A stretch of DNA of 64,000 nt, from the NCBI RefSeq assembly GCF_000147695.2, contig NC_015958.1, positions 1,280,501 through 1,344,500 on the forward strand, given 5' to 3'. A program made the position numbers and the translations under genes. The notes below the pieces were generated by a model. It saw nothing but the letters and a program-made list of their open reading frames with translations. It had not been told where the DNA came from and did no database searches. This document shows, in pieces, positions 283 through 60,531 of this stretch. The stretch comes from Thermoanaerobacter wiegelii Rt8.B1 (lineage in GTDB: Bacteria; Bacillota; Thermoanaerobacteria; Thermoanaerobacterales; Thermoanaerobacteraceae). Each line of letters opens with the position of its first letter. Within the stretch, counting starts at the first letter, position 1.

Positions 283-1428
283 ATGTTTAAAAGGCTTTTA
301 ACATTATTAGTGAGTGTGATACTAGCTATTTCTTTTGTCTTAAATGGCACAGTATATGCTGATACTTTAAATTTAAAGTCAAAATCTGCTATTTTGATAG
401 AGGCTAATACTGGACAAATTCTTTATGAAAAAGATAGCCATAATCCCTTGCCGCCTGCCAGTGTTACCAAAGTAATGACTCTTTTACTGGCGATTGAAGC
501 AATAGATTCTGGTAAAATTAAAATAACAGATAAAGTTGTCACAAGTAAACATGCCTTTGATATGGGAGGTACACAAATATATTTAGAAGTAGGAGAGGAA
601 ATGACAGTAGATGATTTAATGAAGGCTATAGCGATGAATTCGGCAAATGATGCTTCTGTTGCTTTAGCTGAGTATATTGCGGGTACAGAGGAAAATTTTG
701 TTGAAATGATGAATAAAAGGGCTAAGGAATTGGGAGCAAAAAATACTACTTTTAAAAATGCAACTGGACTACCTGAGGAAGGGCACTTGACAAGCGTATA
801 TGATATTGCAATGATTTCAAGGGAATTAGTAAAGCACGAGAGCATATTTAAATATCTAACCAATAAATTAGATTCTTTAAGAAATGGGAAATTTAGTCTC
901 ATAAATACTAATAAATTATTATGGCGCTATAAAGGAGCAGATGGTATTAAAACAGGATCTACTTCGGAAGCACTTTATTGTATGGCAGCAACAGCTAAAA
1001 GGGGAGATACAAGGCTAATAGCGGTGGTATTTGGAGCACCTGATTCTGAGACGAGGTTTAGTGAAGCGGCTAAGTTATTAGATTACGGATTTGCTAATTA
1101 TGAAAGTGTAAAAGTAGCTTCAAAGGGGCAAAGTTTTGGCAATGTCAAAGTTTTTAAAGGAAAAAAGCAGGCTGTTAGTGTTGTGTGCCGCGATGATGAG
1201 TATATACTGATTAAAAAAGGAGAAGGTAAAAATATAAAAACAGAGGTGGAGCTAAAGAATGCTGTATTAGCTCCTCTGGCCAAAGAGGTCCCAATAGGCA
1301 CTGTAAAAATAACACAGGATGGCAAGATTATAAAGACATTTAACATATATCCTCAGGAAGTAGTAGAAAAAGCGAACTTTTTTGAAAATCTCAATAAAGT
1401 TTTTATTGGATGGCTAAGATATCAGTAG
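283..1428 (+). CDS. dacF: D-alanyl-D-alanine carboxypeptidase (DacF-type, penicillin-binding protein)
   Basis: A secreted serine peptidase of the S11 family that trims the terminal D-Ala of peptidoglycan stem peptides. The ATG at 283 follows GAGGAGGGTGATTTT and starts a signal peptide (MFKRLL, then a hydrophobic run, cleavage near VYA-D). The GTG at 211 has no ribosome site and would overlap the upstream gene. The three active-site motifs are present: SVTK near residue 60, SAN near 120 and KTG near 223. The length of 381 residues suits the family, with a C-terminal beta domain and a last amphipathic stretch. It lies directly before spoIIAA, as dacF does in Bacillus, which supports a sporulation (cortex) role. 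A terminator follows it. Confidence 0.93.
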   Translation: MFKRLLTLLVSVILAISFVLNGTVYADTLNLKSKSAILIEANTGQILYEKDSHNPLPPASVTKVMTLLLAIEAIDSGKIKITDKVVTSKHAFDMGGTQIYLEVGEEMTVDDLMKAIAMNSANDASVALAEYIAGTEENFVEMMNKRAKELGAKNTTFKNATGLPEEGHLTSVYDIAMISRELVKHESIFKYLTNKLDSLRNGKFSLINTNKLLWRYKGADGIKTGSTSEALYCMAATAKRGDTRLIAVVFGAPDSETRFSEAAKLLDYGFANYESVKVASKGQSFGNVKVFKGKKQAVSVVCRDDEYILIKKGEGKNIKTEVELKNAVLAPLAKEVPIGTVKITQDGKIIKTFNIYPQEVVEKANFFENLNKVFIGWLRYQ

Positions 1429-10406: not shown

Positions 10407-12670
<2,264 letters not shown>

Positions 12671-38157: not shown

Positions 38158-39355
<1,198 letters not shown>

Positions 39356-39424
39356 CTATATCATACATGATTTTCACTATGGTTTCTATTTTTTTATCTG
39401 TTGCATTTAATTATACAACTAACC

Positions 39425-51802: not shown

Positions 51803-52714
51803 TCAGTCCTCTCTAATGTCTATACTGTCTATTGTTATTAAATCTTCTTTGGTTATATTTATTTTGTTTAAAACTCTTACAGCCTGTTTTCTAATTGCTC
51901 TTTCTATGATATTCCTTACAAGGCGCGCGTTTCCTATTTCTCTTGAATTGTCGTCACGAATCAATATTTTCATTAATTTTCTCTTTGCACTTTCTGTAAG
52001 CTTATATTGCCTGTTTTTTACCATGACTTCCGCAATCTGAAGAAGTTCATCTATAGTATAATCAGGAAAATCTATCTGGATTGGAAACCTGGAGCGAAGT
52101 CCGGGATTGGTATTTAAAAAATATTCCATTTCGTGTTTGTAACCTGCTAATATAAGTATAAATTTATTCCTATTGTCTTCCATTTCTTTGACAAGAGTAT
52201 CAATAGCTTCTTTGCCAAAGTCTTTTTCTCCACCCCTTGCCAAAGAATAAGCTTCATCTACAAACAAAATTCCTCCCAAAGCTTTTTTTACATTTTCACG
52301 GACTCTGTGAGCAGTATGTCCTATGTATTCTCCTACTAGATCAGCTCTCTCTACTTCAACTACATGGCCTTTTTCTAAAACTCCTATACTTTTTAAAAGT
52401 TTTCCTAATATCCTTGCTACAGTAGTTTTGCCTGTTCCTGGATTACCTTTAAATATCATATGTAATACTATAGGTTCAGTGGCTAATCCTTCCTTTTTAC
52501 GCTTTATTTGCAGTTGCGAGAAAGCGTAAATTTCTTGTATAATTTCTTTCACTTTATTAAGGCCTATCAAAGAATTTAGCTCTTTTAAAGCTTCTTCTTG
52601 TAATTTTTTATCATCTACAGTTGTTGTGACTTCTTTAGGTTTATCTTCTGACTTTTTTTCTATTTTATATCCTTCAAATTTATATCCTTCAAAGAAAACT
52701 GGCCGTATTCCCAT
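51803..52714 (-). CDS. spoVK: Stage V sporulation protein K (AAA ATPase)
   Basis: A 303-residue AAA+ ATPase of the CbbX/SpoVK type, needed for spore maturation. Walker A is FKGNPGTGKTTVARILG, Walker B is GGILFVDEAYSL, then the second-region motif LILAGYKHEMEYFLNTNPGLRSRFP and sensor-2 arginines in IGNARLVRNIIERAIRKQ. The N-terminal part repeats FEGYKFEGYKIE. The ATG at 52714 has a weak ribosome site (GGTGG) that lies beside a hairpin arm. A sigma-K-like promoter is just upstream. Confidence 0.94.
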   Translation of the reverse strand: MGIRPVFFEGYKFEGYKIEKKSEDKPKEVTTTVDDKKLQEEALKELNSLIGLNKVKEIIQEIYAFSQLQIKRKKEGLATEPIVLHMIFKGNPGTGKTTVARILGKLLKSIGVLEKGHVVEVERADLVGEYIGHTAHRVRENVKKALGGILFVDEAYSLARGGEKDFGKEAIDTLVKEMEDNRNKFILILAGYKHEMEYFLNTNPGLRSRFPIQIDFPDYTIDELLQIAEVMVKNRQYKLTESAKRKLMKILIRDDNSREIGNARLVRNIIERAIRKQAVRVLNKINITKEDLITIDSIDIRED

Positions 52715-52718
52715 CTAC

Positions 52719-52767
52719 CACCACATCCCAATACCATTTTTATTGTTATTCTATGATATTGGGATGT
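52719..52767. repeat. 13-bp inverted repeat between purB and spoVK
   Basis: CCACATCCCAATA (52719-52731) and TATTGGGATGTGG (52755-52767) with a 23-nt loop. The arm next to spoVK covers the G-rich stretch before its ATG. It has no T-run, so it is a poor terminator for purB. Confidence 0.7.
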
Positions 52768-52772
52768 GGAAA
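52745..52772 (-). promoter_or_regulatory. Candidate mother-cell (sigma-K/sigma-E) promoter of spoVK
   Basis: On the minus strand, AC (52772-52771), 17 bp, then CATAGAATA (52753-52745), a full match to CATANNNTA. In Bacillus spoVK (spoVJ) is transcribed by sigma E and sigma K. Confidence 0.55.
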
Positions 52773-52783
52773 GTGAACAAATT

Positions 52784-54205
52784 TTACACTTCTACTTTTG
52801 CTTCTACATCTTCTTTAAAATCTGCTAAAATAGGGTTTACAATTTCCTTAATGTATTCTTCAGTCTGGCTTACAGCTCTTCCGGTAAATTTTATAGGGTC
52901 AACTAATTCTTTAATTTCTTCTTGGGAAAGTTTAAATCTTTGGTCATTTTGTATATAATCAAGCAACCTATTTTTTTCTCCATTTTTAACTTCTTCTGCC
53001 GCTTTTAAGGAGTATACTCTTATAGCTTCATGTAACTCTTGTCTGTCCCCACCTTTAAGTACAGCTTTCATTAAAATCTTTTCTGTAGCCATAAAAGGCA
53101 ATTCCTTCATCACATTTTTTTCAATTACTTTTTTGTTTACTTTTAAACCAGACGCAATGTTTATATAAAGATTTAATATAGCATCTGTGGCAAGGAACAT
53201 TTCGGGTATTACAATTCGCCTGTTAGCTGAATCATCTAAAGTTCTTTCAAACCATTGAGCAGAAGAAGTAATAGATGCATTTAAAAGTGTGACAATAACA
53301 TACCTACTTAAAGCTGCCATTCTCTCGCTTCTCATAGGATTTCTTTTATAAGCCATTGCAGATGAGCCTATTTGTTTTTCTTCAAAGGGCTCTTCAATTT
53401 CTCTTAAATGTTGCAAAAGCCTTAGATCGTTGCTGAATTTGTGAGCACTTTGAGCAATACCGCTTAAAACAGACAAAAGCATAAAGTCATATTTTCTCGT
53501 ATAAGTTTGTCCTGTCACAGGGAAGGACTTTTTATATCCCATTTTTTCTATTACTAATCTGTCTAGCTCTTTTACTTTTTCTTCATCACCACCAAAAAGC
53601 TCCATAAAACTTGCTTGTGTACCAGTGGTGCCTTTTACTCCTCTTAACATTATGTTTTCTCTTCTATATCTTAAATCTTGTAAATCGAGAATTAAATCTT
53701 GTATCCAAAGGCATGCTCTTTTACCAACTGTAGTAAGTTGAGCTGGTTGAAAGTGAGTATAACCTAAAGTTGGTAAATCCTTATAAGTTAGTGCAAATTC
53801 GGATAAAACTTTTATTACTTTGAGAAGTTTCTTTTCAATTAGCTCAAGAGCTCTATCCATAAGAATTATATCAGTATTGTCATCTACAAAAGCAGAGGTA
53901 GCTCCTAAATGGATTATAGGTTTGGCTTTGGGGCACAAAAGACCATAGGCATGTATGTGAGCCATAACATCATGTCGAAATTCTCTTTCGAATTTTTCCG
54001 CATCTTCATAGTTTATGTTGTCTATATTTTCTTCCATTTCTTTAATCTGCTCATCTGTAATATTGAGCCCTAATTCTTTTTCGCTTTTTGCCAAAGCTAC
54101 CCATAATCTTCGCCAAGTTTTAAATTTTTCATCGTCAGAGAAGATTTGGGTCATTTCTTTGCTAGCGTATCTTGTTATTAACGGATTCTGATAAGTATCT
54201 CGCAT
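52784..54205 (-). CDS. purB: Adenylosuccinate lyase
   Basis: A 473-residue enzyme of purine synthesis acting on SAICAR and adenylosuccinate. It has the fumarase-superfamily signature [18 protein letters not shown] (about residues 288-305) with the catalytic serine loop. [14 protein letters not shown] and [17 protein letters not shown] hold catalytic His residues. It is the longer eukaryote-like form common in Clostridia. ATG 54205 follows GAGGTAAAT. aspC lies 13 bp upstream. Confidence 0.96.
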
Positions 54206-59212: not shown

Positions 59213-59333
59213 GTTATAAATCCTTTTCGTCCGTGTCAAGTTTTCGTAGGTAAATTTTTTTAAAGGTTAGTTGTATAATTAAATGCAACAGATAAAAAAA
59301 TAGAAACCATAGTGAAAATCATGTATGATATAG

Positions 59334-60531
<1,198 letters not shown>

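Follow-up and report, generated by a model that had tools for sequence, protein, structure and literature searches.

The purB–spoVK intergenic region

The spoVK gene of T. wiegelii (nt 51803–52714, − strand) encodes stage V sporulation protein K, an AAA+ ATPase whose score exceeds the curated cut-off for the SpoVK family (TIGR02881, 443.1 bits; cut-off 422.95). It is preceded by the co-directional gene purB (nt 52784–54205, − strand; TIGR00928, 402.7 bits), and both lie in the window, meaning the whole 64,000 nt stretch of DNA that was analysed. The two genes are separated by 69 nt, and the − strand sequence from the purB stop codon to the spoVK ATG is AATTTGTTCACTTTCCACATCCCAATATCATAGAATAACAATAAAAATGGTATTGGGATGTGGTGGTAG. 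A terminator scan found no terminator-like site between them on this strand. Near the start of spoVK there is a 15-nt tandem duplication (EGYKFEGYKIE; window 52660–52695), which is absent from relatives with proteins of 298 aa.

The gap contains a 13-bp perfect inverted repeat. The distal arm, CCACATCCCAATA (nt 52757–52769, − strand), is fully complementary to the gene-proximal arm, TATTGGGATGTGG (nt 52721–52733, − strand), and the stem lengthens to 17 bp with a single G-U pair, extending from 52753 on the distal side and to 52737 on the proximal side. Within the proximal arm is GGGATGTG (nt 52729–52722, − strand), a plausible Shine-Dalgarno sequence that forms a duplex of −9.9 kcal/mol with the anti-Shine-Dalgarno and sits about 8–9 nt 5′ of the ATG (nt 52714), a spacing that is constant across species; this is the G-rich stretch before the ATG that the initial annotation had placed under the gene-side arm. 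The distal arm lies between two promoter-like elements, and its sequence (CACATCCC...) resembles the 16S anti-Shine-Dalgarno. The first element is an AC (nt 52774–52773, − strand), a candidate −35; it is followed by a 17-nt spacer (TTTCCACATCCCAATAT) and then by the −10 element CATAGAATA (nt 52755–52747, − strand) in the loop. Re-reading of the sequence confirmed exactly the proposed arrangement of a 13-bp repeat with CATAGAATA in its loop and AC 17 nt upstream.

These elements match the promoter pattern of the sigma-K regulon, AC-N16/17-CATANNNTA, without deviation, and assignment to sigma-K rather than sigma-E is predicted from the AC at −35 together with the 17-nt spacing. From the position of the promoter, transcription is predicted to start at nt 52740 (− strand), 7 nt past the −10 and also inside the loop. 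The sigK gene itself was found above the profile cut-off in this genome, with its reading frame broken by one A in this assembly and lost after about 38 codons. The run at this point has seven A's (L149:1537–1560; G000:C1 about 1235150) and is one A shorter than in a second genome of the same species (G061) and in other relatives, which show eight or an equivalent of the same length (compare L275); the frame is intact in G061. The break may represent an assembly error, a strain defect or a slippage site.

The hairpin is far more stable than expected for its composition. The 61-nt element has a minimum free energy of −27.3 kcal/mol, compared with −10.3 ± 2.7 for dinucleotide shuffles (z −6.3, 0/200). 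When pairing between the upstream region and the start region was calculated for all 63 genes of the window, spoVK ranked first (−31.3 kcal/mol against a median of −8.4), and among 807 ORFs, drawn from about 860 kb of genome sequence, it also gave the top stem score. The spoVK leader occurs as a single copy in the genome, and a repeated element was rejected on that ground.

Folding predictions differ for RNAs beginning on either side of the distal arm. In a long RNA derived from upstream, the spoVK Shine-Dalgarno is predicted to be paired with a probability of about 1.0 at 37 °C and 0.99 at 65 °C, the latter being closer to the temperature at which these bacteria grow. The claim that a readthrough transcript would have its start masked agrees with these values. 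A short RNA from nt 52740 would lack the distal arm, which lies upstream of the predicted start, again as the initial annotation had proposed. Its Shine-Dalgarno is predicted to pair weakly with the coding sequence in this genome (0.74 at 37 °C, 0.58 at 65 °C) and only at 0.2–0.4 in several relatives at 65 °C. This residual pairing is the soft spot of a model in which readthrough is silenced.

Conservation of the leader

Both arms and the AC-N17-CATA pattern are kept in all Thermoanaerobacter and Thermoanaerobacterium species examined. The sigma-K-type promoter, which had been suggested from the one sequence, matches its consensus exactly and is conserved in four genera (AC-N17-CATA in 21/21 leaders); the −10 element is conserved in all relatives, and the promoter is recognisable in many Clostridia. 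The exact pattern CATCCCAATATCATA...ATTGGGATG occurs once per genome in 19 genomes (all of genus g1, including the second genome of the same species, and all of genus g2), and wherever this was checked it was at spoVK. In Thermoanaerobacterium a gene other than purB precedes spoVK, so a different neighbour leaves the hairpin and promoter in place at spoVK. In Thermoanaerobacter thermocopriae (L004, L088) the spoVK frame is interrupted near its N-terminus, and the leader hairpin is intact.

The arms are nearly invariant in 18 species, and the proximal arm is near-invariant across three genera. Because the arms are almost fixed, the leader alignment provides little covariation: one stem pair is changed on both sides and there are a few G-U changes. 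The outermost pair is C-G or U-A depending on the genus, with pairing retained. U-G pairs are seen in one genome (G007) and at two positions in the third genus (L098), where one additional change disrupts an innermost pair. The loop varies in both sequence and length.

More distant leaders can have the same layout with different arms. Two genomes from another family of the order (L103, L107), with a purB-like sequence upstream, carry the arms GCCACTTTTTTGCATAT / ATATGTAAAGAGGTGGC, plus a TGCCTCTTTGCATAT version, and the arms in Desulfosporosinus (L058) are CACCTTTCATCTTTACT / AGTAAGGATGGGAGGTG. In all three, a sigma-K-like −10 is located within the loop or next to it. No such stem was seen in many of the other clostridial spoVK leaders compared.

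Stems covering the Shine-Dalgarno at other genes

Stems that bury a Shine-Dalgarno were scanned for in 40 stretches totalling about 860 kb, including the window and amounting to under a third of the genome, with 807 ORFs preceded by a Shine-Dalgarno. With a score of at least 26, 24 such stems were seen, against 0.95 expected when the upstream part was shuffled, an excess of about 25-fold. Most of the 24 belong to IS transposases, present in several copies, and sporulation genes are the other main group, their share being judged by reading the matches and not from a blind list of sporulation genes. The pyrH and gltX genes also scored, and their stems may be due to chance. The stems at a GH18 lipoprotein gene and a lipase-like gene are accompanied by sigma-E/K-like sites, but these genes cannot be tied firmly to sporulation. 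One further hit of the scan, a SASP gene, was rejected because it did not pass the shuffle control (z +0.3).

An IS30-like transposase gene is present twice (window 38276–39384, − strand; 59305–60413, + strand), with a 16-bp perfect inverted repeat (39-nt loop) spanning the start codon. In RNA arriving from outside, this repeat would hide the start. Similarly, a UPF0236 (ISLre2-like) gene (window 10407–11438, − strand) has AGACCTCACC / GGTGAGGTCT over its Shine-Dalgarno, and a second copy lies at G000:C1:1711492.

The sporulation genes with a stem are spoVK, spoIIM (TIGR02831), a yunB-like gene, named from our own reading of the sequence and not from a family search, and a gene for a SpoVD-like PBP beside sigK. 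Two weaker cases are a DacF-like carboxypeptidase gene (window 283–1428, + strand; stem score 24) and sigG, which has a shorter version. The DacF-like leader follows the same design, with arms TCACCCTCC (nt 239–247, + strand) and GGAGGGTGA (nt 270–278, + strand), and a recombinase-like (XerD) reading frame ends 64 nt upstream of the gene. In the sigG leader of this genome (L150, between sigE and sigG), the Shine-Dalgarno is buried by ATCCTGCC / GGCAGGAT, a case known from B. subtilis.

The named sporulation genes are situated 44–69 nt downstream of a co-directional gene. Their distal arms lie in, or overlap, sporulation-type promoters: sigma-E-like at spoIIM, AC-N17-CATAAAATA at yunB and sigma-F-like at the DacF-like gene; these promoters were read by eye, except those of yunB and spoVK. 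With transposases excluded, a stem was present at 3/18 ORFs with a strict sigma-K-type site (spoVK being one of the three) and at 10/772 without one (p 0.0025). The arms also change jointly across genera or families. Those of the DacF-like gene are TCACCCTCC/GGAGGGTGA here and ATCCCTCC/GGAGGGAT in Thermoanaerobacterium, those of yunB are AAAACACCTCC/GGAGGTGTTTT or ATATATAATCCTCCC/GGGGGGATTATATAT, and those of spoIIM behave likewise.

A swap test between species can be confounded by G+C. Beyond the family, the test was therefore repeated with a control for composition, in which the upstream part of each leader was itself shuffled and a leader was counted as passing if it beat 95% of its shuffles. 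The proportion passing was 43% for yunB leaders (one per family, n = 21), 20% for spoVK leaders (n = 54, own lineage excluded) and 8% for other genes of this genome, so that the effect outside the family is modest but significant, with the leaders in each set being related to one another. The yunB swap within the family made no difference, because the arms barely vary there. A wrongly assigned start in L262 was left out of these comparisons. A trade-off between hairpin and terminator across Clostridia was not significant (8/27 vs 3/25, p 0.18) in a crude classification in which the 90-aa ORF limit missed small upstream genes.

A probable translational insulator and its known counterparts

The observed stem, the promoter-like elements, their conservation and their recurrence at other sporulation genes are best explained, with a probability of nearly 80%, by an intergenic hairpin that is interleaved with a sporulation promoter and acts as a translational insulator. 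During growth, readthrough RNA from purB would carry both arms, and the resulting 13–17 bp stem would bury the spoVK Shine-Dalgarno and prevent translation. During sporulation, RNA polymerase with sigma-K would initiate within the loop; since the start would be inside the loop, the RNA would lack the distal arm and its Shine-Dalgarno would be available. The distal arm can occupy the space between −35 and −10 presumably because the sigma factor does not read the spacer. Every part of the originally proposed readthrough masking that can be examined in sequence agrees with it, and the proposal is supported to that extent.

If the repeat were instead a DNA operator, each arm would be a half-site for a dimeric regulator, with the promoter flanked by the two and under their control. 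Near-invariance of the arms in 18 species is as expected for a protein site, but the distance from one half-site to the other differs, in small increments, by as much as about 9 bp, and the changes that are tolerated include G-U pairs on the RNA strand. A regulon sharing one half-site at fixed spacing was not found at the other sporulation leaders: the arms differ among sporulation genes and families, where complementarity to the Shine-Dalgarno is the only common feature, and outside this locus the genome has just two exact matches to the spoVK arms, each a single copy standing alone. We regard an operator as improbable. Slightly less probable still is a general attenuator that damps all spoVK transcripts, including sporulation RNA from farther upstream, and is perhaps opened by a factor. 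Precedents exist in B. subtilis, where spoVK is served by two promoters, P1 (sigma-E) and P2 (sigma-K) (PMC517825, citing Foulger and Errington 1991), and where a small hairpin at the RBS of sigG is described as damping all sigG transcripts (PMC5942855). Against this, the sole conserved promoter-like element of the spoVK leaders and its predicted start both sit in the loop, folding at 65 °C is predicted to leave the stem closed, and apart from the −10 the loop shows no sequence conservation.

A terminator, or a stabiliser of the purB RNA 3′ end, would fit a stable hairpin immediately 3′ of purB, and a processed purB 3′ end may lie at the stem. An intrinsic terminator combines a GC-rich stem with a T-run, but here no T-run follows the stem and the terminator scan was negative, loops of 15–29 nt are atypical of terminators, and the hairpin remains with spoVK where another gene replaces purB, making this explanation very unlikely. 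A functionless chance repeat can be dismissed almost entirely: although the window holds 33 inverted repeats of at least 13 nt with arms within 70 nt, conservation across three genera refutes it, and the shuffle controls are also against it.

The translational insulator may extend beyond spoVK. We consider it slightly more probable than not that anti-Shine-Dalgarno arms in promoter spacers provide a general insulation of sporulation genes in Thermoanaerobacterales, weaker in other Clostridia, with RNA self-complementarity replacing terminators 45–70 nt behind housekeeping genes and the sporulation sigma factors thereby setting translation as well as transcription. If this is true, no terminator would be needed between a housekeeping gene and a spore gene immediately downstream of it, because both the timing of transcription and the translatability of the RNA would be set by the sporulation sigma factor. 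Anti-Shine-Dalgarno stretches between the −35 and −10 of developmental promoters would then serve as a sequence signature that helps to locate the true promoters and start codons of sporulation genes.

Several known systems bear on this reading. In transposase leaders of the IS10/IS50 type, RNA entering from outside has the start of the transposase gene buried by an inverted repeat. Several elements of this genome show such a repeat, a feature shared with spoVK; unlike the spoVK leader, leaders of this type guard against transposition in new surroundings and are not developmental. At the B. subtilis spoVK there is likewise a sigma-K promoter, but also the separate sigma-E P1, and the accessible part of the source mentions no hairpin (PMC517825). 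Within the open literature, outside which most subscription papers fall, we found no report that describes the device at spoVK or treats it as common to sporulation genes in general.

The B. subtilis sigG gene (spoIIIG) is closer. There, a large stem has been proposed to keep readthrough RNA of the upstream operon from being translated, and this stem cannot form in RNA from sigG's own promoter (PMC5942855, citing Masuda 1988 and Sun 1991). In this sigG resembles spoVK, as a sporulation gene with a proposed readthrough-blocking stem that is absent from its own-promoter RNA. It differs in gene, sigma factor, cell compartment and upstream operon, spoIIGA-sigE being itself a sporulation operon whereas purB is vegetative. 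In the leaders of T4 gene e and I-TevI, a stem burying the RBS in RNA from upstream promoters has been shown experimentally; the late promoter lies within the 5′ strand of the stem, so that late RNA lacks that strand and is translated, and for gene e the effect is about 100-fold (PMC3014915, PMC2988022). The likeness to spoVK is an RBS stem with its own promoter nested in the 5′ part. The T4 cases are phage genes under a phage late sigma factor, whereas for spoVK, a chromosomal sporulation gene with a sigma-K-type promoter, we infer the same behaviour. The spoVK leader is probably a further case of the device shown in T4 and proposed for sigG, and its recurrence at several sporulation genes is the new part; if true, a rule from phage late genes, proposed once for sigG, would extend to many chromosomal developmental genes.
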